Virus record (IMG/VR): IMGVR_UViG_3300031952_000106 | Location: 1 to 28,602 of that record | From: a virus | DNA: 28,602 bases | Reading direction: 5' to 3' (one strand) | Shown: positions 5,347 to 28,602 of the stretch, piece after piece | Layout of the letters: each line of letters begins with the position of its first letter | Position numbering within the stretch: the stretch's first letter is position 1 | The notes under the pieces: generated by a model | Seen by the model: only the letters and a program-made list of their open reading frames with translations | Told to the model about the DNA's origin: nothing | Database searches by the model: none | Made by a program: the position numbers and the translations under genes

Positions 5347-6120
5347 TTAGCTGGCCGGTATGGTGATAAATCCCGTTTCAATGGTTTGCGTGGAGCCGAT
5401 GACAACATTGAGATTGGTCATATTACACTCCGCCCCGGAAGTGGAAACCAACCCCTGAATGCGCATGTCGTTTGCGTCCGCGTCCAGACCATCTGAAGAA
5501 GTAACCAACCGGAAGTACGTTGCTGTTCCGGAAGCCGTGGCCACCCCGGACCAAACATCGGCGCTCTTAGACAGCACGCCGGTATTGGGAGCCCCGAACT
5601 GAATCGTGTTGGCCCGAGCCGCAGCCGTTACTTGTGTTGCGACCGTTGCGCTCAACCATCCAGTACAGGAACCCTCCGTAAGTGTAAAAGAGACGCCGGC
5701 AATACGGCCCTGAACGTATAGGACTCCATCCGCACCAGTGGCAATAGCATCAACCTGTGCGCAGTCGTTCAGCATCCTGGCGACCTTTGTGGCAACCTTG
5801 GTAACGCTGCTGTCGGCAGTCAACACAACGTAGGTCAATGTCGTTCCATCCAACACCAATACAACGGTGTCTCCCGCGTTGGGCGCCCCAGAGTGGCCGA
5901 TCGTAATCTTCTCAAGCTGGGAGGTTGATCGATCTCCAGCCGTCACGCCATCACTTGCTTTCGTTACTTTATAAAGCAAGTTTGCTGTTCCGGGAGCCTC
6001 TTCCACCGTGGCGGGTGCGGTTCCGCCATAGACATACAAAACGGCATCCTCAAACGCCTTTCTTATAGTGCCTTCCCCGGCGAGAAAATTTCGTAATCCC
6101 GTGCTCAATTTCAAACTCAA
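5347..6120 (-). CDS. Phage structural protein with TTG start, 257 aa
   Basis: The protein begins MSLKLSTGLRNFLAGEGTIRKAFE, an opening I have seen in unannotated phage virion proteins. It continues as Ala/Thr/Val/Gly-rich beta sequence ending in a QTIETGFITIPAS tail. The initiation codon is TTG at 6118-6120, chosen because AAGGAGGA is spaced 5-6 bases upstream and no ATG or GTG with a ribosome site is nearby. The TTG start may lower expression relative to neighbours. Virion role is inferred from composition and neighbourhood. Confidence 0.6.
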   Translation of the reverse strand: MSLKLSTGLRNFLAGEGTIRKAFEDAVLYVYGGTAPATVEEAPGTANLLYKVTKASDGVTAGDRSTSQLEKITIGHSGAPNAGDTVVLVLDGTTLTYVVLTADSSVTKVATKVARMLNDCAQVDAIATGADGVLYVQGRIAGVSFTLTEGSCTGWLSATVATQVTAAARANTIQFGAPNTGVLSKSADVWSGVATASGTATYFRLVTSSDGLDADANDMRIQGLVSTSGAECNMTNLNVVIGSTQTIETGFITIPAS

Positions 6121-8353: not shown

Positions 8354-9256
8354 TTACCATACAGAAGAAAAAAAATGCGTTGCATTACCGGTCTTTTTTA
8401 GAATTGCATACCCTTCGGTTTTACCGGAAACGTTATAGGTGTTTTTGGTCAATTCTTTAAAATATCCATCGGCGCCACCGAGACACACCCCATTTTTTGA
8501 AAGCCACAGAATAACCTTACCGGAAATATCCAGCCCATCAACATCCTGGGAATCGCACGTTACCGACGTTCCTAAGATGGCCGGTTTGTCTGATTTTTTA
8601 ATCAGAGAGGAATCCTTGATGTCTGCACCGGATAAGAAATAGACGTTTTGCTGATCGGAAACCCATAGACCGTTCTGGACCGATCCCATCATGGAAATTC
8701 TGGACGGAAAACTCTTGAAATTTCTGCGCTCATCCATAATTCCCGGATACATGGCGTCTGAATACCAGATGTCATTACCTCTCGCGACCAGCAACCGACC
8801 GTTGTACCAACCGATCAGGTGCCCGGCTGGCATCAAGATTTTATAGGTCATTTCGGACGGAAGGGTAAAGGCACTGAAAGTTAAGTCCTGGACATAGCCG
8901 ATGATACTCTCATTCGTTAAAAAGATTTTAGGTGGAATATCGACGTAGGACATTCTTCCCGATCCCCCGGAAGCTTGCAGGAGAGAAGGAGAATGAGCGG
9001 CATCCATGATTTTAAGGTCATTCCCATGGACGAACAGGCACACGCTTCCGTTCGACCAAAGCGAGTGTATTCGCGTTCCCGAAACGACGGCGGTTTCATA
9101 CCCTGAGCTCCGGTGCGGCATCAAGTCGTTGTCAATATCGACGTTTATGCACTCCGTAAGATAGGCCAGTCCTCTCTTAGGAACCACTCGGGCGGCATCA
9201 CTGACGTTGTTCTTGCCGAGAAAGCCTTTAATTTTTATAATCTCTTGGGTATTCAT
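8354..9256 (-). CDS. Tail nozzle / stabilisation-like virion protein, 300 aa
   Basis: Residues 27-55 (KRGLAYLTECINVDIDND followed by a RSSGYE turn) match the opening seen in podophage stabilisation or nozzle proteins of the T7 gp12 / P22 gp10 kind. Later segments such as HLIGWYNGRLLVARGNDIWYSD look like beta-propeller blades. At 300 residues it is much shorter than T7 gp12, so it would be a minimal form. Its ATG overlaps the adaptor stop (TAATG at 9256), so the two are translationally coupled, as expected for proteins that stack below the portal. Confidence 0.6.
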   Translation of the reverse strand: MNTQEIIKIKGFLGKNNVSDAARVVPKRGLAYLTECINVDIDNDLMPHRSSGYETAVVSGTRIHSLWSNGSVCLFVHGNDLKIMDAAHSPSLLQASGGSGRMSYVDIPPKIFLTNESIIGYVQDLTFSAFTLPSEMTYKILMPAGHLIGWYNGRLLVARGNDIWYSDAMYPGIMDERRNFKSFPSRISMMGSVQNGLWVSDQQNVYFLSGADIKDSSLIKKSDKPAILGTSVTCDSQDVDGLDISGKVILWLSKNGVCLGGADGYFKELTKNTYNVSGKTEGYAILKKTGNATHFFSSVW

Positions 9257-9930
9257 TATCCCGAATATCCTCGGTGCAGGGCCACTGGCCCAGGCAAATT
9301 AAATGCCTGATAATTCTCCCGGAAAGCCTTGGAAATATTCGCTGTAAATTTTACGTAATACTCCATGGCCAATTTCTTGTCGAAGGTTTCGGCGTCCTGC
9401 TTCAGGTAAGCCTCGGAGAGAATCCCATCCATGAGGTATTTTTGAAACTTCTCGGGGATCTCCGGAGATGCGGTAAGGGCCGTTAGAACAAGGTCATTCA
9501 GTGGAAGCCGGTAAACGATCAAATTCGCCGTGTAGGAAGTGCCGGGGGCCGGGATAAAGGTAATTTTACCCGTGGTCAGATCTTCGGAGAAATATTTGGG
9601 GAGGTCGGGCGTTGCGATTTGCCATGTAGTATAAAATTGCTGAAGCCAATCCAGATCAACGATGCCCATGGAAGTGGTTTGCCCGAGAATCCTGGCCTGC
9701 CTCACCTTCACGATCTTGGAATGCTTCGTATAGTCGGCACCGGCAGCAAGCGTCAAGGCTATCTGGCACACCGCCGCCGTGGTTGCGTCGGAAATTAGAT
9801 ACGCACCTTCGGCCAGACGCCTCTCCGCCCGGTTGGCGTAGCGAAGCAGTTCCTTATCGGCCCACAGATAAGGGGTCGATTCATCGTCAAGTTTTTCTCT
9901 GACTTCTTCAAGAATCTCTCTTAGGATCAT
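9256..9930 (-). CDS. Head-tail adaptor (DUF6682-like), 224 aa
   Basis: The N-terminus MILREILEEVREKLDDE, then YLWADKELLRYANRAERRLAE, is the helical opening of phage head-tail adaptor proteins of the DUF6682 type (T7 gp11 / P22 gp4 analogues). The middle (GKITFIPAPGTSYTANLIVYRLPL) is the usual beta insertion, and the C-terminus returns to helix (YYVKFTANISKAFRENYQ). It would dock under the portal ring and connect to the nozzle-like protein encoded immediately downstream. It overlaps the upstream 9908-10174 gene by 23 bases. Annotation rests on pattern and position. Confidence 0.7.
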   Translation of the reverse strand: MILREILEEVREKLDDESTPYLWADKELLRYANRAERRLAEGAYLISDATTAAVCQIALTLAAGADYTKHSKIVKVRQARILGQTTSMGIVDLDWLQQFYTTWQIATPDLPKYFSEDLTTGKITFIPAPGTSYTANLIVYRLPLNDLVLTALTASPEIPEKFQKYLMDGILSEAYLKQDAETFDKKLAMEYYVKFTANISKAFRENYQAFNLPGPVALHRGYSG

Positions 9931-12921: not shown

Positions 12922-13854
12922 TTAGCCCTTACAGCAGTACAAGGTACCCAGAGCTTCGGGGTGGAACACTTTCCGCCCGAAGACGTTCAGGACCCGGATA
13001 AGTTCCGCAAAGGTACTTTCGGGGGCGGGGATATGCTGGGTCTTTTCCAGTTGGGTGGCGAATGAAATGGCCATGGGATGACCAAACATTGCCTGCCAGC
13101 ACTTGGGTCCAGTAGAATCCGTGGCGGTAGCCAGGTTGCTGGAACCGTAAATCGTGAAGCGATCAATTGTGCCCAGGCGACCGTTCGGCAGAGTTGATTC
13201 TACCCCGGTCATGGAAGCATCTTTCAAATCGGACTTTTTCAGTGTGGCCGTAGCCCATTTCGGGAGTACGATCCAACGTCCGGTTTCGGGAACTTGCTGC
13301 TCATCCAGTACCAATCCGCAATCGACTATTACTTCAAGGATATTGGTCTTGGTCAACTGAAGGGGAGCACCGGAAGCACCAAGAAGAATGTCTTCAGATT
13401 CTTTACCGGCGGTATTGCCCCTGTTGTGGACAGCCTCAGAAAGTGGGTGGGCATAGGCCAGGATGTTGGCATCGATAGCAATGGCCATCTTGCGCCCGCC
13501 GTCGTCGGTCCAGGAATCCATCAGTTTGATGTTGGATTGTTTAGCGATAACATCATCGCACTTAAAGGCAAAGTAATACCCCTGATCGATTCTCATTTCG
13601 ACCGGCTCGGAATTGGGTAATTGATAGTTAAGGCTTTGACCAATCACGAAGGGACTGATCGTGATGTCGGGATTGGTTCTCACGATGACCGTATCGCCGT
13701 ATTTGCTAATCATTCCTTCGTAATCGGTATTGCTTATCTCGCCAAACACGGTAGTAAGATAGAGCTTCTCCAGCAGCTTTCCGGCAAGTAGTTCCGGAAT
13801 GAAGAATGCTCCGGAAGCGGTATAGTCGGGATGTCCAGGTGTAACGTTAAACAT
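12922..13854 (-). CDS. Major capsid protein, HK97-like fold, 310 aa
   Basis: The sequence carries the pattern typical of one group of phage coat proteins: FFIPELLAGKLLEKLYLTTV, then a NTDYEGMISKYGDTV-type strand, PEVRT-like and IDQGYYFAFKCDDV strands with a conserved QSNIKLMDSW helix, and a C-terminal domain with GRLGTIDRFTIYGSSNL. It follows the scaffold gene by about 30 bases and is followed by two decoration-like genes, as in many podophages. The start follows AGGGAGA. It would form the icosahedral head shell together with the scaffold. Confidence 0.85.
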   Translation of the reverse strand: MFNVTPGHPDYTASGAFFIPELLAGKLLEKLYLTTVFGEISNTDYEGMISKYGDTVIVRTNPDITISPFVIGQSLNYQLPNSEPVEMRIDQGYYFAFKCDDVIAKQSNIKLMDSWTDDGGRKMAIAIDANILAYAHPLSEAVHNRGNTAGKESEDILLGASGAPLQLTKTNILEVIVDCGLVLDEQQVPETGRWIVLPKWATATLKKSDLKDASMTGVESTLPNGRLGTIDRFTIYGSSNLATATDSTGPKCWQAMFGHPMAISFATQLEKTQHIPAPESTFAELIRVLNVFGRKVFHPEALGTLYCCKG

Positions 13855-21133: not shown

Positions 21134-21490
21134 TTATTCGTAGGAGAAATCGCAAACGACGGCTTGGGTAGTTCCAGCGTTAAAGGTGAATGTAACCGTC
21201 AGTAACGATTCCGAAGCAGAAACATCGATCTCAAGACGATGGTTGCCGTCGGCGTTGAGAGTTACAGTAATCGGCGCCAGGGTGGCAGTAGCAAAAAGTC
21301 CGTGCTGGAAAAGAGTACTGGCATGGACGTGAGGATTTACAGATCCAACTGTAAAGGCAACACTTGTTCCGTTTCCTTTGGTATACGCCACATAAACATA
21401 TATTTTCCCTTGGTTGCCGCGGATCCTGAATGTGCAAACGGTATCGGATCCGGAAATAACGCCAGTTTTCGAAGTTACAGCGTTAGCCAT
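21134..21490 (-). CDS. Small beta-rich virion protein, 118 aa
   Basis: MANAVTSKTGVISGSDTVC leads into alternating strands (FRIRGNQGKIYVYVAYTKG, VTLNADGNHRLEID), ending in a TQAVVCDFSYE tail. No enzymatic motif is seen. The ATG at 21488-21490 is chosen over the one 7 codons upstream because GGAGGA sits 6-8 bases before it. It is the first gene after the tRNA. Probably a head or tail decoration protein. Confidence 0.6.
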   Translation of the reverse strand: MANAVTSKTGVISGSDTVCTFRIRGNQGKIYVYVAYTKGNGTSVAFTVGSVNPHVHASTLFQHGLFATATLAPITVTLNADGNHRLEIDVSASESLLTVTFTFNAGTTQAVVCDFSYE

Positions 21491-21611: not shown

Positions 21612-21685
21612 TGGTTGCGGCACCCCGGGTTGAACGGGGAACTCCAGGGTATGGGCCTGGCAAGCTACCATTGCTCTATGCCGCG
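21612..21685 (-). tRNA. Initiator-like tRNA-Met (anticodon CAU)
   Basis: A complete 74-base cloverleaf is readable. The acceptor is CGCGGCA / TGCCGCA with a C1-A72 mismatch. The D arm is GAGC-AATGGTA-GCTT, the anticodon arm CCAGG-CCCATAC-CCTGG, the variable loop AGTT and the T arm CCCCG-TTCAACC-CGGGG, followed by an encoded A-CCA. The C1xA72 mismatch and the A11-U24 pair are hallmarks of bacterial initiator tRNA. The anticodon stem keeps G30-C40 and G31-C39 but has A29-U41, so only two of the three initiator G-C pairs are present. Position 33 is C instead of the near-universal U. It lies inside the late operon between a 57-aa gene and the 118-aa virion gene. Confidence 0.85.
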
Positions 21686-21703: not shown

Positions 21704-21877
21704 TTATTTTGTCGATTTCATGTGCTTGAACATCTCGACCCTATTTTCGGATTTTTGAATCCTTGCAGGGCTTGGTCTTTTTTCTCCGAACCATTCCAGC
21801 ACCTTTCCTGGTGTCTTGGTTGACACCAAAGCGTATTCTTTTCTACCGGTCTTTTCGTTATAACGATGTGCCAACAT
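21704..21877 (-). CDS. Small basic protein, 57 aa
   Basis: The frame MLAHRYNEKTGRKEYALVST, then KTPGKVLEWFGEKRPSPARI, ends EMFKHMKSTK. It is lysine/arginine-rich and probably binds nucleic acid or an acidic partner. TAGGAG lies 8 bases before the ATG. A longer frame in another phase over the same bases lacks a ribosome site and has low-quality composition, so this frame is preferred. It sits just upstream of the tRNA. Confidence 0.65.
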   Translation of the reverse strand: MLAHRYNEKTGRKEYALVSTKTPGKVLEWFGEKRPSPARIQKSENRVEMFKHMKSTK

Positions 21878-21886
21878 TGGAATCTC

Positions 21887-22159
21887 CTACATCGGAACAT
21901 TGCCCGGAGTTTCGGCGGCCTTGCGCATCATTTCATCCAGTAATGCGCTGGCATTTATAGGATTCATACTTTTCATCAACTCCGCCAGAAGTCCAGCTCT
22001 GCCTTGAAATTTCTTCATCATAAGATCATCGGTCATGACAGGCCATGCCTGTAAGATTACATTTTGATATTGTCCCAAGCCTTCGCGGATTTCATTAAAA
22101 TCCTTGCTGGTATGGAGACTGATGACGGCCTTCAAGAAGCGATCGCTCGGTTTAAACAT
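21887..22159 (-). CDS. Hypothetical helical protein after portal, 90 aa
   Basis: MFKPSDRFLKAVISLHTSKD leads to helices with a LMMKKFQGRAGLLAELMKSM core and a SALLDEMMRKAAETPG end. The ATG overlaps the portal stop as TAATG, so it is probably translated by reinitiation after the portal. No membrane segment or known motif. A portal or head-assembly partner is a guess from position only. Confidence 0.6.
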   Translation of the reverse strand: MFKPSDRFLKAVISLHTSKDFNEIREGLGQYQNVILQAWPVMTDDLMMKKFQGRAGLLAELMKSMNPINASALLDEMMRKAAETPGNVPM

Positions 22160-24243
22160 TACACTCCCCCTTCATTGAATTGTCTGAAGTCCTGGCCCAC
22201 GACCGGGTTTCCGTCCGGCCCCAGGGTTTGCGGTTTCGGTTGCGAAGCGATGGGCTGGCCCAATTGGCCCATATTTGGCCCATCTTCCTCGAACATTCCC
22301 TTACCAGGAACCACCATGTCCTCTTCGAGATCCATCGATCGCGCCGTGCTGCGAAGTAGATATTTCCTTCCTTCTGGACCCATCAGCGTTATATCGGTCG
22401 GGTTGTTTGTCATTTGCATAAATTCTACGCGCCGAATGGATTGCTGTTCTTTGGCCAGCAACGCCGTTGCGCCCTTAGCCACGATCTTGAAGTCCGGGAC
22501 GATGCCGATGTTTTCATGCTGCGTGATTTCCCGGAAAAACTGAGCCCTGACGGTTTTGGAGATGACCTTGGTATCGATGTTTTTAATTAAGTTTTTAATG
22601 CCACGTGCGGCTTGGGTAATAAGCATCGAAAGACCGCTTGCGGTATTACCTCCTCCGCCCACTTGCGGGTCGCCATGGGCGTATGCCGGTACGCCGCTGT
22701 ATTCGTCCGCCAGCTTCGAGAAGAAGTTATAAACCATGATAAGGCGCTCGACGACCATCGGGGGAGAGTAAAAGTTAATTGCCTTGCCGGTATTCATCTG
22801 ATCGTCAGTAGTGAACCACACGCGCCACGGGGTCAATTTCTTGGATTCTCCAGGAGCCAGGCGTTCAATATTGACTTCCACTTGGGGACCGGAAGCTATA
22901 CCAGTATTCTGAATGATCGCCCTGGTGGCTGAATTACAACCACGTTGGTTATCCACTATAATTTCAGGAAGTCCGTCACCCCAAAAACAATCCGCCTTTT
23001 CCTTGTAAGCTACCTTAGAAAAAGGTTTCTTTCTCAGTGGATCGGGGTTTAAAATGGCCCCCACCACGATGTCCTTGATGAGCCATGCGCAAATATCGTA
23101 TTCGCCAAGTTCCATAATGTTGTTACCGGCCATGCCCCACTCTTTCAGGAGTTTCCCCTGGACCGTACCCCAAAACTCCAGGCAATCGATATTTTCCCCG
23201 GCGTGCAAAAATTGCGTGCCGCTCCCCTCAATAGCCTTTTTCTCCGACTCGAAACTGAGCCATTCCCTAAGACCACCGGTGCGGAAGGTGGACAGAACCA
23301 AGTCGATGTTCGTCGAATTGTATCCGTCGATCCCCTTTAATGCTTCGAGATCCCTTGGCTGAAAACTTATAAGATCGATCAGATACCCGTCCTCAATGTT
23401 CGTTGACTTTGGCTGCGGATAGATATTAAACGGAGATCTCCGCTCGTAGCGATCGATAATTTCTTCTTTCACCTTCACGACGTACTTTCCACCCGTTCCC
23501 ACTTTGACCTTAAGGGTCGGTTCTCTCCGTTTAATCGGCCCCTTGACGAATCCGTTTTTCAGACGAACCACGTCTCCCACGAATTCTTCGATCGCTTCGT
23601 ACCATCCACCTTCCGTCAGAGCATCATCCACTTTCTCTTTTATCTTTTCGGTTCGGCGTTTAGCTTCTTTTTTAACGAGCGCGTTCATCTCTTCTTCAAA
23701 CTTGGGGAGCATCGAACGAACTGATCCAAAAATACCCATCGGATCGACTTCCTCACCCTTGGCGGCTATCATTGTGGCGATCGTCTGAAAGGTCTGAGAG
23801 ATGAACTTTTGTCGAATAGTATTGACCACATCTTCGGGCAACTCAGGTGATGGAGTGGGCTCTAAGTCCCACGGTTTATATCCAGGTTGGCAGATAACTT
23901 CCTTGATCCACGCCTCAGCCGCCCGACACTTCGCGTCGGTCAACATCATGAAATATTCCGGGGCATCGGCGGCCCTGATATGCGCAAGCATATCGACCTC
24001 GTACTGCCCGGCAATTTGACGCATGTTTTTCATCATCTGCGTCTCAATGTCAACCTTCTCGCGCTTGGCTTCTTCCCAGCACTTCCGAATATATCCGGCC
24101 AGGTTCGCGGCAACTTCCGCAGTCTTTTCGGTTCCGTCCACGATGGACGAATCCTTCGCTTTGACCGCTTTGGCCGCCGTCACTTCCGAGGGCGTCATCA
24201 CGTTAAGAAGGCCAAAGGTTGTACTGGGTTGTTTGTCTGCCAT
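22159..24243 (-). CDS. Portal protein, podophage type, 694 aa
   Basis: The protein is long (694 aa), in the range of P22/N4-like podophage portals, with a helical N-terminal body, a central region with RYERRSPFNIYPQPKS, and a conserved GNTASGLSMLITQAARGIKN motif followed by the KNIDTKVISKTV helix, as in portals of this class. A Pro/Gln-rich disordered C-terminus (GQPIASQPKPQTLGPDGNP) may face the capsid interior or bind the adaptor. It follows terL closely. It would form the dodecameric DNA channel at the head vertex. Confidence 0.75.
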   Translation of the reverse strand: MADKQPSTTFGLLNVMTPSEVTAAKAVKAKDSSIVDGTEKTAEVAANLAGYIRKCWEEAKREKVDIETQMMKNMRQIAGQYEVDMLAHIRAADAPEYFMMLTDAKCRAAEAWIKEVICQPGYKPWDLEPTPSPELPEDVVNTIRQKFISQTFQTIATMIAAKGEEVDPMGIFGSVRSMLPKFEEEMNALVKKEAKRRTEKIKEKVDDALTEGGWYEAIEEFVGDVVRLKNGFVKGPIKRREPTLKVKVGTGGKYVVKVKEEIIDRYERRSPFNIYPQPKSTNIEDGYLIDLISFQPRDLEALKGIDGYNSTNIDLVLSTFRTGGLREWLSFESEKKAIEGSGTQFLHAGENIDCLEFWGTVQGKLLKEWGMAGNNIMELGEYDICAWLIKDIVVGAILNPDPLRKKPFSKVAYKEKADCFWGDGLPEIIVDNQRGCNSATRAIIQNTGIASGPQVEVNIERLAPGESKKLTPWRVWFTTDDQMNTGKAINFYSPPMVVERLIMVYNFFSKLADEYSGVPAYAHGDPQVGGGGNTASGLSMLITQAARGIKNLIKNIDTKVISKTVRAQFFREITQHENIGIVPDFKIVAKGATALLAKEQQSIRRVEFMQMTNNPTDITLMGPEGRKYLLRSTARSMDLEEDMVVPGKGMFEEDGPNMGQLGQPIASQPKPQTLGPDGNPVVGQDFRQFNEGGV

Positions 24244-24252
24244 GCTTCGCTC

Positions 24253-25716
24253 CTAATAGTAAGCCTGAACCGGCGGTAATTTTGTGGATGTTCCATCGTG
24301 GCCGCCAAGCGGCCCGACGGTCGGGGTAATTCCACGCTGGATGGTCATGCACGCATACTGCAAGGCGTCGTGAGGATGGGATACCGGGTTCTTCTCGGCG
24401 GCCTCGGCGTAAACCTCCATACCCACAACCTGAAGTTTTCTGCGTTTGTATTCTCCATTGAAACCCTTGCGCAGCATTTTACATGATGGGTCCAACTTAA
24501 AAGCCGGCTTGCCATCGATCATCTTTGTAAGAAAATCATCGACTGACGTAAATCTTGGCTCCAGAGCGTTGGAATATGCCAATTTCACCGGGAAGCCCGC
24601 CTCCCTCAGTTCCTTGTAACAGGATTTCGTCTCGTCGAATTCAGACCGCCTGGCTCCAGAAGGATCGCACCCAGAAACAAAACGGTATCCGTTGAAATTT
24701 GCGATCAAAAATGGCTTAACAACGTCTCGGGCGAACCGCTTGACCCCCATTTCGGTAGCGCAGAGTTCGCGTAGGACGTGTAGCACGCCCTTTGGATGGT
24801 ATTGAGTGATAACACATGCCGGCGTAAGCCCGAAATCAAATCCGAGCGTCAGGTGAACTCCAGGCCATGGTTTTAGCGGGGTATCCGAGCAATGGGAAAG
24901 ATCATTGTAATTCGAGTAAATGATCTTGCCTTCCCGGACATAACCGTACTCACCACGGATATAAACCTTGATGTAGTTATCATCTTTCCCAACGGCTAAA
25001 TCTTGATAATAGTTCTTGGAAAGATGGGTTAGGTTTTCAGCATCTGCTGAAAGACCGGACGGCTGGTGAAAATAGTCGTAAAATTCCTGAAGCTGTAAAT
25101 CGTTTGGAAGATCTTCGACAAATAATTTATACAGCCAGTGATCTGTATCACATGGGTTTGTGTCGAGGATGATTCCGCCCCACGTTGCTCCGCCGTCTTT
25201 TTGGGCCGGGTATTGATTGATACGGCCATCCATGGTGTCAAAAATGACTTTCGGAATTTCCCGGGCCTCGTTGAACCATACTCCCGTTACTTCTAAAGAC
25301 CAAAGATTCTTGACATGCTCTGGTTTGTCAAGGGCCCTAAAAAGAATCTCGCACTCAACTTCTGTTCCATCGGAAAACTTTTGATGAATCGTATAATCTG
25401 GTCTGGGGTTTGAACGATAATCGTTTCCAAAATACTCCGGTGGAAACCAGTTGAGAAATGTCTTAATGGTCGTATCGAATAATTCTGGATAGGTATTACG
25501 AACTATTGCCCATCTCGTTTTCCGTTTTCCATATTTGTCGGGGGCCTGCTCGCAGGCTTTCGTGTAAACTTCCACGGAACATGCCGAAGACTTACCACTT
25601 CGGAAGGGACCTACAATTAAGCGAATTCTTTTGCGACTATCGCTGAACTGTTTTAAGGTTGAGGCATCTCGGTAACTGTAGACGATTGTATGGTTATTTG
25701 TATGGTTATTATTCAT
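24253..25716 (-). CDS. terL: Terminase large subunit, 487 aa
   Basis: This is the packaging motor ATPase and nuclease. The Walker A motif GPFRSGKS lies at residues 36-43, Walker B at about 143-153 (VTGVWFNEARE), and the coupling motif LDTNP at 184-188. The RNase-H-like nuclease domain has its metal ligands in GFDFG (Asp294), SGCDPSG (Asp351) and HPHDALQYA (Asp450). Length is typical. The ATG overlaps the terS stop by ATGA, so translation is coupled. A His/Asn-rich N-terminal tag of ten residues is slightly unusual. Confidence 0.95.
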   Translation of the reverse strand: MNNNHTNNHTIVYSYRDASTLKQFSDSRKRIRLIVGPFRSGKSSACSVEVYTKACEQAPDKYGKRKTRWAIVRNTYPELFDTTIKTFLNWFPPEYFGNDYRSNPRPDYTIHQKFSDGTEVECEILFRALDKPEHVKNLWSLEVTGVWFNEAREIPKVIFDTMDGRINQYPAQKDGGATWGGIILDTNPCDTDHWLYKLFVEDLPNDLQLQEFYDYFHQPSGLSADAENLTHLSKNYYQDLAVGKDDNYIKVYIRGEYGYVREGKIIYSNYNDLSHCSDTPLKPWPGVHLTLGFDFGLTPACVITQYHPKGVLHVLRELCATEMGVKRFARDVVKPFLIANFNGYRFVSGCDPSGARRSEFDETKSCYKELREAGFPVKLAYSNALEPRFTSVDDFLTKMIDGKPAFKLDPSCKMLRKGFNGEYKRRKLQVVGMEVYAEAAEKNPVSHPHDALQYACMTIQRGITPTVGPLGGHDGTSTKLPPVQAYY

Positions 25717-26297
25717 TTTTCGATAATAAAATTCACCATAAATCCAACCTTACCCTTATTCGATCCACCACCACTCGATTCTTTATCAAACAACTTGTTT
25801 TCTCTACGATTTTTATCTACATTAGTATAGATCGTTACTGCGTCTTTGGCCTTGCCTATTTTGGCCACTGGGTCGAGGATAACCTTGGTTGGATTAAATG
25901 GATCTGGTATAAAACATTCCTTCAATACGCTAAGCGCCAGACGAAACGCCGCGTCATCAATTACCTCTCCAATTCCCCTATGTTCGTATTCACGAACTCG
26001 GTCTTTCCATTTAAAGCGATAAGACCACTCTGCTACCTTATTTCTCTTCAGTTTAAGTTTTTCAGCAACCGCACTAAGGCTCCGAAACTCCCCGAGAACC
26101 AGATATTGCTCGAAGGCTTCTTTCTGGACTTCATTTTCTACCGGCGCCTTTCTCTTTTGGGCTGTAGGATCGACCTCCACGGATTCTACAGAAACTTTCG
26201 GCGGGCGACCACGCCTCCCGGGCGGCCTAAGCCTCTTGAGCGGCTTAATCACAACTCCAGGATTAACCGGCACTAAAGATTGACATTGTGAATTCAT
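25713..26297 (-). CDS. terS: Terminase small subunit-like protein, 194 aa
   Basis: The N-terminus has an AT-hook-like GRRGRPPK (27-34). Residues about 61-101 form a helix-turn-helix (AFEQYLVLGEFRSLSAVAEK, then RNKVAEWSYRFKWKDRVREY) of the type found in small terminases. It is followed by a helical oligomerisation region and a Lys-rich C-terminal end. It overlaps terL by 4 bases and is the usual neighbour. It would recognise the pac/cos site and recruit TerL. Recognition is by context and HTH only. Confidence 0.75.
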   Translation of the reverse strand: MNSQCQSLVPVNPGVVIKPLKRLRPPGRRGRPPKVSVESVEVDPTAQKRKAPVENEVQKEAFEQYLVLGEFRSLSAVAEKLKLKRNKVAEWSYRFKWKDRVREYEHRGIGEVIDDAAFRLALSVLKECFIPDPFNPTKVILDPVAKIGKAKDAVTIYTNVDKNRRENKLFDKESSGGGSNKGKVGFMVNFIIEK

Positions 26298-26524
26298 AAT
26301 ATGGATCCAGCATTCTCCGCGGGGGCATCACCATCACACTCGATAAAATCAAAAGGAGTAAGGGTTCCTATACTCTTAAGATCACGAACAAAAAAACCCA
26401 CCGAGTGGCCACCCTCAAGACCGACCCCAGCCGAAGGATCTCTTGGCAATCCAAGGCACGCCGCACACGTTTTCGTAGTCAAAAGGTGCTTACACCTTGG
26501 CTTTATCTTTAGACTCGGGGCCAT
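26294..26524 (-). CDS. Small protein with Cys/His cluster, 76 aa
   Basis: The N-terminus has CKH (Cys11, His13) and CAAC (Cys20, Cys23), a CxH...CxxC arrangement that could bind zinc. The remainder (GVGLEGGHSVGFFVRDLKSI and an acidic ECDGDAPAENAG tail) has no known motif. The stop overlaps the terS start by 4 bases, and GGAG lies about 10 bases before its ATG. It is sandwiched between a peptidase-like gene and terS. Function unknown. Confidence 0.55.
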   Translation of the reverse strand: MAPSLKIKPRCKHLLTTKTCAACLGLPRDPSAGVGLEGGHSVGFFVRDLKSIGTLTPFDFIECDGDAPAENAGSIL

Positions 26525-26888
26525 AAAAAGCGTTCTCCATTCTCCTTACGATTACATGTTCCTCGGTTTCGTACACACCCTGAACCGACCACCGTTCCTG
26601 ACCCAAAATCACAAGATTCGCTAACAACAAATGCACAACCTCATGAAACCCCGACCTCTTTACCCTTTGATTCGAAACGGGATCATCTCCCCACGACCTC
26701 GCAAGACCAAGACTGGAAATCTTATTGCTAAAATCAGCGTGAAACCACGCCCTGCAATTACCAAGATCAGTATCGTCCTCATGGAAAAAACGAACTTGCC
26801 AATCTTTCAATCCAAGCCTATCGATCCATAAAAGGGCCTCCTTCTTAAAAAGCTCAAAGTGTTTTACCGATGTGAGATTCTTTTTCAC
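26490..26888 (-). CDS. HExxH metallopeptidase-like protein, 132 aa
   Basis: The GFHEVVHLLL motif (HEVVH at 82-86) is the zinc-binding gluzincin signature, and the downstream acidic helix EEHVIVRRMEN (from about 109) would supply the third ligand, as in phage minigluzincins. The N-terminus (helical, with WQVRFFHED) is the usual lead-in for this class. It starts with GTG at 26886-26888, only about 14 bases from the predicted transcription start, with a poor ribosome site. It is the first gene of the late operon and could process virion or host proteins. Confidence 0.65.
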   Translation of the reverse strand: MKKNLTSVKHFELFKKEALLWIDRLGLKDWQVRFFHEDDTDLGNCRAWFHADFSNKISSLGLARSWGDDPVSNQRVKRSGFHEVVHLLLANLVILGQERWSVQGVYETEEHVIVRRMENAFYGPESKDKAKV

Positions 26889-26908
26889 AATAGGTCTACC
26901 GTGATATC

Positions 26909-26937
26909 AATATACCAAATTAAACTTCGAATGTCAA
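26909..26937 (-). promoter_or_regulatory. Late operon promoter, TTGACA-17-TATATT
   Basis: Read leftward, TTGACA (26932-26937), a 17-base spacer and TATATT (26909-26914) form a near-consensus sigma-70 promoter. The predicted start is near 26902, about 14 bases before the GTG of the first gene. Upstream, GTGTAGATCACAC (about 26948-26960) is a near-palindrome and AAGTGT is repeated, possible operator or activator sites. The core elements are identical to the 10.27-kb promoter. Confidence 0.85.
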
Positions 26938-27526
26938 GTATAAGTGTAGATCACACAGTAAGTGTTTAAAATTATAGGGAAAAAATTATAACTTTTAAAA
27001 ACACAAAAATACACCCGTGGTAATGAACCATTCGATAATACCGAAGAGTTCATAAGAAATAATCAAAAATGATGATTTATCTAATCAATAATCAACTATT
27101 TAAAAATAAGAAAAAGAAGGCTCTATTTCTTACAAAAAAAATGAAAGTTTCGAAATTAAAAAAATTATAAATTATGAGGACTACGTGCTTGAGAGGATAC
27201 TAATGTAGTACCCGACCTCGTTGAGTAGACCGGGATCTCGACTCCCCCCCCTGACCCTGCCACCCATGTCACCCTTCGGGATTTCCATGGTCGCAGTCAA
27301 GGCCAAGCCCCCGAGAATTTCTAAACTTGAAATTCAAAACCCTATTATCTATTCGTCTTGTCGATCTGAGTCATCAAGTGGACAGTTGCCTTATAGGCAG
27401 GAAGTCGGGCTGATAAAAGCTCATCATTGTATGGACATGACGTGGATTCATCTTTCCCGGTTGCGGGTATGGTTGCGGGTAGAGCGCAGTTCCTTTTAAA
27501 ATTGTCTTTTCTCTAAGTAGAATTTT
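26938..27526. other. Gene-less intergenic region
   Basis: No convincing gene is visible on either strand. It holds the upstream promoter region, an AT-rich block (about 26.96-27.18 kb) with three copies of AAATTATA, and the 11-base direct repeat GGTTGCGGGTA at 27459-27469 and 27471-27481. A short plus-strand frame here has no ribosome site. It probably contains control DNA between the divergent late and early sides. Confidence 0.5.
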
Positions 27527-27535
27527 TTATCCACA
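27527..27535 (+). promoter_or_regulatory. Perfect DnaA box 1
   Basis: TTATCCACA is the consensus DnaA-binding site. It lies just left of the hexanucleotide array and is the first of three perfect copies within about 710 bases. Confidence 0.7.
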
Positions 27536-27556
27536 AATAGGTGATCGGGTCCACCC

Positions 27557-27608
27557 TTCTCTTTCTCTTTCTCTTTCTCTTTCTCTTTCTCTTTCTCTTT
27601 CTCTTTCT
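27557..27608. repeat. Hexanucleotide repeat, 8 perfect CTTTCT copies
   Basis: Eight perfect tandem copies of CTTTCT (27561-27608) are preceded by a partial copy. It is a pure polypyrimidine/polypurine tract that could adopt triplex or slipped structure, and its copy number is likely to vary. It lies between DnaA box 1 and the 12-bp repeats. Confidence 0.95.
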
Positions 27609-27634
27609 AGGTACCTACCTGGTAACCAGACCCA

Positions 27635-27680
27635 TAAACGGGCTGTTAAACGGGCTGTTAAACGGGCTGGTAGACAGGCT
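27635..27680. repeat. 12-bp direct repeats (TAAACGGGCTGT)
   Basis: Units begin at 27635 and 27647 (identical), 27659 (last base differs) and 27671 (partial, diverged: TAGACAGGCT). Tandem 12-bp units beside DnaA boxes and an AT-rich element look like protein-binding repeats of a replication origin. Confidence 0.85.
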
Positions 27681-27720
27681 ACATCCCAAAACTCTCATTT
27701 CTTCTTAACGAAAAGCTTCC

Positions 27721-27770
27721 TATATTTATATATATCTATATATTTATTAATTATAATTGAATTTATTAAG
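27721..27770. other. AT-rich putative unwinding element
   Basis: Only three of 50 bases are G or C, with tandem TATAT steps and TTTATTAA motifs. It lies between the 12-bp repeats and the iterons, where a DNA unwinding element would be expected. Confidence 0.6.
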
Positions 27771-27994
27771 AAGTCATCTTCGAGGAGACCCGGCTGGTCG
27801 GCATTGCTTCTCGTTTTTCCTTTATTTTCTTCTTTATGAATACTTAATAATTACATCCTAATACAACATAGTGTGTCATTATTGCAACACGGTGTTGCAA
27901 ATTTGCAACAATGTAAGTATGTGATATGTTTGTTAGTTCAGCAATCAGCAATAAACCCAGTGTTTATTTTGCAACACATATAGGGAATATGTCT

Positions 27995-28010
27995 TTTCGT
28001 TAAAACGAAA
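27995..28010. other. Stem-loop TTTCGTT-AA-AACGAAA
   Basis: A perfect 7-bp inverted repeat with a 2-base centre lies within the iteron region. It may be an operator or a structural element; no other evidence. Confidence 0.45.
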
Positions 28011-28183
28011 GGTCTTATAAGGCTATGATATTATAGGCAAACTCATCATTTTAAAATCTTCAGCTCAAGTGTATAAATGGCATGTGTATTGCTTGTTATA
28101 GATTGCCACCGGGAGAAATCTGGGGTGATGCAAAAACGACACACTAAGAAAGGAGAAAGAGTCTAAGTTGGGGCAAAAATGGC

Positions 28184-28192
28184 TGTGGATAA
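28184..28192 (-). promoter_or_regulatory. Perfect DnaA box 2 (reverse)
   Basis: TGTGGATAA is the reverse complement of the consensus DnaA box. It lies between the second and third good iterons and is oriented toward box 3. Confidence 0.7.
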
Positions 28193-28227
28193 AACAAGCT
28201 TTTTAGTTCTGATACGTACTATAAAAA

Positions 28228-28236
28228 TTATCCACA
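28228..28236 (+). promoter_or_regulatory. Perfect DnaA box 3
   Basis: TTATCCACA lies 2 bases from the third good iteron and about 40 bases before the plus-strand gene at 28277. The tight DnaA-box/iteron pair suggests joint binding of DnaA and a Rep-like protein. Confidence 0.75.
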
Positions 28237-28276
28237 ATGTGTTGCAAAAACGACACACAAGGGAGGGAGGATGGAA

Positions 28277-28492
28277 ATGGAAAAGGGATTTAAAGAGCTG
28301 GCGAAACAGAAGGGGGGGATATTTGGAGACAAGCTCCGAGCTGAGAAGCTCATGGAAATTCTGGCCCCATGTCTGACCACGACCGATCGTGAACCGCACT
28401 GGCAATCAGAGCGGTATAATACCACATGGGGAACTAAGTCGTATCTCGGCATGGTTGCCGTGATATGCCGTGTAATGTATGAGGATCAATAG
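28277..28492 (+). CDS. Hypothetical protein of the rightward operon, 71 aa
   Basis: The protein MEKGFKELAKQKGGIFGDKL, then RAEKLMEILAPCLTTTDR, ends YLGMVAVICRVMYEDQ. It is soluble and mixed alpha. The second ATG (28277) is preferred because GGGAGGGAGG then has normal spacing; using the first ATG at 28271 would put the ribosome site too close. The start lies 18 bases after an iteron, so the gene may be autoregulated with replication control. No family recognised. Confidence 0.6.
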   Translation: MEKGFKELAKQKGGIFGDKLRAEKLMEILAPCLTTTDREPHWQSERYNTTWGTKSYLGMVAVICRVMYEDQ

Positions 28493-28494
28493 CC

Positions 28495-28602
28495 ATGAAA
28501 AGACTTCTTGAAAACTTCCTTGTTTCGATAATTCTCGGGGCCGGGTTGACTTTGGGTGCCGCCATCGTAATTGGGTGGATTATCCTTCTTAGGTCTACCC
28601 TT
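28495..28602 (+). CDS. Partial small membrane protein, 5' end
   Basis: The frame is open to the right edge (36 codons seen). After MKRLLENF it has one long hydrophobic stretch, VSIILGAGLTLGAAIVIGWI, ending in a basic turn, so it is a membrane protein with an N-in anchor. GAGGA lies 9 bases before the ATG, overlapping the end of the upstream gene. Function cannot be seen from the part present. Confidence 0.55.
   Translation, partial: MKRLLENFLVSIILGAGLTLGAAIVIGWIILLRSTL

Follow-up and report, generated by a model that had tools for sequence, protein, structure and literature searches.

The window, i.e. the whole stretch of DNA analysed (28,602 nt), encodes a phage initiator tRNA whose anticodon loop is altered at two positions, with C33 in place of U33 and C38 in place of A38. 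This tRNA falls within a wider tendency. Judged from the sequences compared, phage initiators tend to relax the 29-41 pair, base 38 and, rarely, base 33, which are nearly fixed in chromosomes, while a non-strong 1-72 pair is almost always kept.

ARAGORN, when run on the whole window, returned only one tRNA, tRNA-Met(cat) on the minus strand (Table 1). The gene scored 49.3 bits with the Rfam tRNA model RF00005, compared to a gathering score of 29. It was not called in the Rfam scan of the whole window at the gathering threshold, presumably due to the fast filters. The initial annotation had read the tRNA from the letters and proposed a check with a tRNA model, and these two results bear out its call. 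A total of one ARAGORN match was obtained from 300 block-shuffled windows, making a chance origin negligible. The tRNA reads CGCGGCA-TA-GAGC-AATGGTA-GCTT-G-CCAGG-CC-CAT-AC-CCTGG-AGTT-CCCCG-TTCAACC-CGGGG-TGCCGCA-A-CCA, and its stems are fully paired except for G10-U25 and the C1xA72 mismatch. The unconstrained MFE fold differed from the cloverleaf; non-cloverleaf MFE folds are common for unmodified tRNA.

Table 1. Features of the tRNA gene and of its surroundings in the window
Feature	Position	Strand	Basis
Head-closure protein, downstream	8354-9256	same strand	
SU10-type adaptor, downstream	9256-9930	same strand	
Major head protein (phrog_267), downstream	12922..13854	(-)	
Next gene downstream (125-aa ORF to 21511; start 21490 with SD GGAGG), no assigned function	21134..21490	(-)	
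Gene of an initiator-type tRNA-Met(CAU), 74 nt with the encoded CCA	21612..21685	(-)	ARAGORN, RF00005 49.3 bits, sequence
3' CCA, encoded	21612..21614	(-)	sequence
A72, opposite C1	21616	(-)	sequence
Anticodon stem-loop CCAGG-CCCAUAC-CCUGG; A29-U41, G30-C40, G31-C39	21644..21660	(-)	sequence
C38 replacing A38; 5' side of the 38-39 bond cut by VapC in tRNA-fMet	21649	(-)	sequence, PMC4105405
Anticodon CAU	21651..21653	(-)	ARAGORN
C33 replacing U33	21654	(-)	sequence
D arm core: A11 (21675) and U24 (21663), initiator-type purine11-pyrimidine24	21663..21675	(-)	sequence
C1, unpaired against A72 (21616), initiator acceptor mismatch	21685	(-)	sequence, structure
60-aa ORF immediately preceding the tRNA, without a family assignment	21718..21900	(-)	
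Portal / head-tail connector protein (phrog_332, SU10_portal)	22159..24243	(-)	
Terminase large subunit	24253..25716	(-)	
Terminase small subunit, upstream of the tRNA	25713-26297	same strand	

The determinants of formylation and P-site entry (PMC7949028) are an unpaired 1-72, G2-C71, C3-G70, A11-U24 and an anticodon stem with three G-C pairs. The window tRNA has no strong pair at 1-72 (C1xA72), as in bacterial tRNA-fMet, and the formylation aids G2-C71, C3-G70 and A11-U24 are all present. Among the three anticodon-stem pairs, 30-40 and 31-39 are G-C and 29-41 is A-U. This AGG/CCT form was also observed in some chromosomes (G442, G494 and G372) and in many phage copies, indicating that three G-C pairs are not strictly defining for initiators. 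The loop has CAU but reads CCCAUAC instead of CUCAUAA. The paired 1-72 and Y11-R24 of elongator tRNA-Met and tRNA-Ile2(CAU) are absent, and both these readings are excluded on sequence by C1xA72 and A11-U24. Among ~2,500 tRNAs parsed from the fetched loci, the 12 nearest were all of initiator type, the second-nearest being a C33 copy from Erysipelotrichaceae (L305). The initiator assignment made in the initial annotation, as well as the CAU, C1xA72, A11-U24, C33 and two retained G-C pairs that it had described, thus held on direct reading and on comparison with the nearest tRNAs; the second loop departure, C38, was absent from it.

The window tRNA resembles bacterial tRNA-fMet (E. coli metY/metZWV type) in CAU, C1xA72, G2-C71, C3-G70, A11-U24, G30-C40, G31-C39, A37 and the encoded CCA, and differs from it in C33, C38, A29-U41 (not G29-C41), a 7-nt D loop and a 4-nt variable loop. 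The eukaryotic cytoplasmic initiator also has C33 (PMC9023262), whereas C1xA72 and the T loop of the window tRNA are of bacterial type, and the likeness is a parallel, not a relationship.

The gene is located inside a late head/packaging operon of a podovirus-like contig, on the same strand as the late genes, in agreement with the earlier placement of the tRNA in a structural operon. Its initiator hallmarks and the genes that share its strand, which include those for the terminase, the portal and the major head protein, mark it as a phage-encoded initiator-type tRNA. It starts 32 nt past the 60-aa ORF and ends ~120 nt ahead of a gene with a clear Shine-Dalgarno (SD) sequence, and no terminator-like site was found around it. 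A promoter of its own was rejected, the sole minus-strand match ending 3 nt before the tRNA and being within chance expectation. We infer that the tRNA is co-transcribed with the late operon. The source record is a 28.6-kb virus contig whose ends do not match, and the phage may therefore have further tRNAs that this contig lacks.

We found no DNA similarity of the tRNA region to GenBank phages and no close relatives of the window terminase in IMG/VR. Annotated terminase relatives had no tRNA near the terminase, and hence none conserved in synteny with that of the window. tRNAs were present in 9 of 80 IMG/VR terminase relatives, and CAU tRNAs in five of the 80 (L556, L562, L569, L583 and L595), with no obvious ortholog of the window tRNA among them. 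The CAU tRNA lies just upstream of the terminase in the first four; in L595 it is on the other strand and has C33 and UxU at 1-72. The CAU tRNAs of L556 and L569 mix an initiator-like C1xA72 with D and anticodon stems of elongator type, and that of L562, whose D and anticodon stems are also of this type, was grouped with them as of mixed identity. In the relatives L558, L559 and L572, 6-7 tRNAs (Pro, Tyr, Asn, Trp, Thr and Ser) form a conserved cluster upstream of the terminase.

Hundreds of contigs in IMG/VR carry an initiator-type tRNA. The U33 initiator pattern gave at least 120 matches there, and the IMG/VR pattern matches that were printed are nearly all true tRNAs with intact stems. GenBank isolates having an initiator-type tRNA include D3, Donnerlittchen, GodonK, CcrSC, phi-pp2 and phiEa21-4, and tRNA-fMet genes have already been annotated in phages (PMC10747093, PMC12429752). 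A phage-borne initiator tRNA is in itself not new, and the earlier argument that phage tRNAs are usually elongators, so that an initiator copy is unusual, was too strong. Among viral contigs, L655, L750 and L753 have initiator tRNA 5' halves with an interrupted anticodon loop (in L753 by an insertion of ~26 nt after CAT); these are possibly introns in phage initiator tRNAs.

The six isolates named above share with the window tRNA the initiator core and a weak or mismatched 1-72. Among 13 isolates inspected, C33 was present in D3 (a Pseudomonas phage) and Donnerlittchen (a Janthinobacterium phage), a base other than A38 in pEa_SNUABM_44, DSS3_MAL1 and CBW1004C-Prop1, and GGG/CCC was kept in five. 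Unlike the window tRNA, D3 and Donnerlittchen combine C33 with A38 and GGG/CCC, and the Donnerlittchen tRNA adjoins its terminase gene, whereas that of the window stands alone inside the head operon. C33, C38 and A29-U41 are found together in the IMG/VR copies L007 and L036, and the 17-nt anticodon arm of L007 is identical to that of the window tRNA. Both copies differ from it in having TxT at 1-72, and the L007 tRNA belongs to a cluster of at least four tRNAs, unlike the lone tRNA of the window. Within the compared set, C33 and C38 occur together only in these three tRNAs.

The C33 initiator pattern was found in at least 117 viral contigs in IMG/VR. In samples chosen regardless of base 33, C33 accounted for 8 of 111 tRNAs (about 7%; stem CCAGG sample) and ~3% (D-arm sample), and the proposal that C33 is typical of phage initiators was rejected. 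Non-bacterial loci yielded 92 distinct sequences with C33, and these formed 24 clusters at 80% identity, which points to several origins. That C33 is phage-specific was also rejected, as it is the chromosomal state in some bacteria. Bacterial C33 initiators were found in at least 119 stretches, including those of Weissella, Leuconostoc, Saccharibacteria, Elusimicrobia and Erysipelotrichaceae. In Weissella and Elusimicrobia the only matching initiator copies carry C33, which indicates that C33 is compatible with bacterial initiation. Among 250 Bacillota genomes, a non-U33 base at the matched tRNA was observed only in the C33 seed genome and in one other, where the C33 copy lies beside a U33 copy. 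A Nocardioides MAG also has one U33 and one C33 copy, the latter amid phage-like genes (phrog_908, a replication initiation protein and a phage zinc-binding domain). C38 was found in none of the bacterial C33 tRNAs, A38 being present in 120 of 120 among the matches listed. The initial annotation had correctly referred to C33 in higher-eukaryote initiators (PMC9023262), but the state is not restricted to eukaryotes, being native in several bacterial lineages. The bacterial C33 tRNAs bear on the role of position 33 in initiation, which has so far been discussed mainly for eukaryotes.

We compared the phage copies as a class. The 1-72 pair was not strong in 385 of 391 distinct CAU tRNAs with A11-U24 from non-bacterial viral or phage loci (6 G-C/C-G, 107 weak A-U/G-U and 278 mismatches), position 1-72 being outside every search pattern used to gather them. 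G1-C72 was present in 36 of 110 CAU tRNAs with other cores. As 1-72 is rarely strong even though the searches did not select for it, selection appears to keep initiator identity in the phage copies. In the anticodon arm, 22 of 94 phage-contig initiators were non-A38 and only 15 of the 94 kept GGG/CCC, in a D-arm sample chosen regardless of the loop and restricted to a 7-nt D loop; the IMG/VR set includes some host DNA and prophage ends. Non-A38 was observed in 5 of 248 Bacteroidota genomes, always in an extra copy beside a further initiator copy. Chromosomal matches listed for three phyla other than Pseudomonadota were almost all GGGCTCATAACCC. The 13 inspected isolates show the same tendencies as the IMG/VR sample. 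We found no description of this anticodon-arm relaxation in phage initiators in the open-licence literature searched. The extra Bacteroidota copies (G274 C3:244999, G258 C2:583464, G143 C17:2091, G252 C5:593066 and G098 C13:192634) are possibly mobile-element copies.

The window gene is probably a functional phage initiator, produced from the late transcript and adding to or replacing the host pool. Intact stems, the encoded CCA, collinearity with the late genes, the class-wide retention of a non-strong 1-72 and the bacteria whose only matching initiator copies carry C33 argue for this reading. Counting against it, one of the three conserved G-C pairs is lost through A29-U41, the MFE fold mentioned above is not the cloverleaf, and no close relative was found that would show the gene to be conserved, the annotated terminase relatives being without a tRNA near the terminase. 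The tRNA would most likely be transcribed with the portal/terminase message, excised from it by host tRNA-processing enzymes, charged by the host methionyl-tRNA synthetase via CAU and A73, and formylated by the host formyltransferase on account of the unpaired 1-72, G2-C71, C3-G70 and A11-U24 (determinants from PMC7949028). It would then enter the host initiator pool while the late proteins are made, a stage at which initiator may be in short supply or damaged, with the ribosome presumably tolerating C33 and C38. The likeliest benefit of C33/C38, if any, would be a weaker action of host factors reading CUCAUAA, e.g. VapC-type nucleases cutting between 38 and 39. The initial annotation had considered a bias in start-codon use, with several late genes using TTG or GTG; such use by several genes was not supported, and the bias has little support. 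Among the surveyed genes, only that at 5347-6120 has TTG with a strong SD, and most of the ORFs starting with GTG either contain an in-frame ATG preceded by a better SD or have a poor SD only. A need of the late genes for unusual start codons was rejected from this survey. Its other suggestion, replacement of a damaged host initiator, is plausible and has some indirect support from C38 and the phage-wide pattern.

A selective version of the functional-initiator explanation, which we consider rather unlikely, is that the host's own initiator is cut or modified by the host during infection, and that C33, C38 and the altered 29-41 pair were selected for letting the phage copy escape. VapC of Shigella and Salmonella cuts tRNA-fMet between A38 and C39, that of Leptospira also cleaves this tRNA (PMC4105405), and the AtaT toxin targets it by acetylation (PMC7180214). 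The window tRNA has C38 at the bond cut by VapC (PMC4105405) and could be a poor substrate of such an enzyme. The excess of non-A38 in phage-contig initiators (22/94) over Bacteroidota genomes (5/248, in extra copies) points the same way, as does the general alteration of phage tRNAs at nuclease sites in the anticodon loop; however, phages are reported to tend not to encode tRNA-fMet in cases where it is a target of VapC (both PMC10264068), and U33 and A38 are kept in most phage initiators. Extending such escape to phage initiators at large, as a recurrent counter-defence that would keep the formylation features and change the positions (33, 38 and 29-41) read by host enzymes that target the initiator, VapC for example, with the C33 and C38 of the window tRNA placing it among the most altered, is a proposal that we regard as unlikely. 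Relaxed drift would yield the same pattern: in a redundant copy, C33, C38 and A29-U41 may be near-neutral and have no specific role. The diversity of phage initiators at these positions, with otherwise conserved stems, is consistent with such drift, which is possible if somewhat unlikely; alone, it leaves the retention of a non-strong 1-72 in 385 of 391 copies unexplained.

It is also conceivable, though quite improbable, that the host lineage itself has C33 and that the phage captured its initiator. C33 is native in several bacterial lineages, and the second-nearest tRNA is the Erysipelotrichaceae copy. Against a captured copy, none of the bacterial C33 tRNAs compared has C38, and no host copy is closely similar (best alignment score 57 of 74). 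Moreover, the hosts of the terminase relatives are mostly Proteobacteria, which have U33 in their E. coli-like ASL, and D3 and Donnerlittchen carry C33 despite their Pseudomonas and Janthinobacterium hosts being expected to have U33 initiators. Finally, the gene might not be used as a tRNA at all, serving instead as an attP integration site or as a signal for processing of the late mRNA by RNase P/E. tRNA genes commonly serve as phage integration sites, many U33 IMG/VR matches are near locus ends, and the window gene sits between genes of one operon. But the tRNA is complete and lies in the midst of structural genes, the window proteins that were scanned included no integrase, and CAU, the 1-72 mismatch and CCA would not be required of a mere processing signal, which makes such a use highly improbable.

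It has long been asked why phages carry tRNAs. For an initiator tRNA, codon compensation in elongation cannot be the explanation, and this isolates the alternatives, namely that it adds to the capacity for initiation in late infection, or that it takes the place of a host initiator destroyed by defence enzymes. With the C33 form present in D3 and in the Janthinobacterium phage, the question can be addressed in laboratory systems.

Apart from the tRNA, the last 1.7 kb of the window (26900-28602) is lower in GC (0.39) and lacks convincing genes; it contains a (TTCTCT)8.7 repeat and another, 12-bp tandem array, and may be a chimeric or non-phage contig end. A 132-aa ORF at 26490-26888 (minus strand), without a Pfam match, has an HEVVH motif and is possibly a metallopeptidase.
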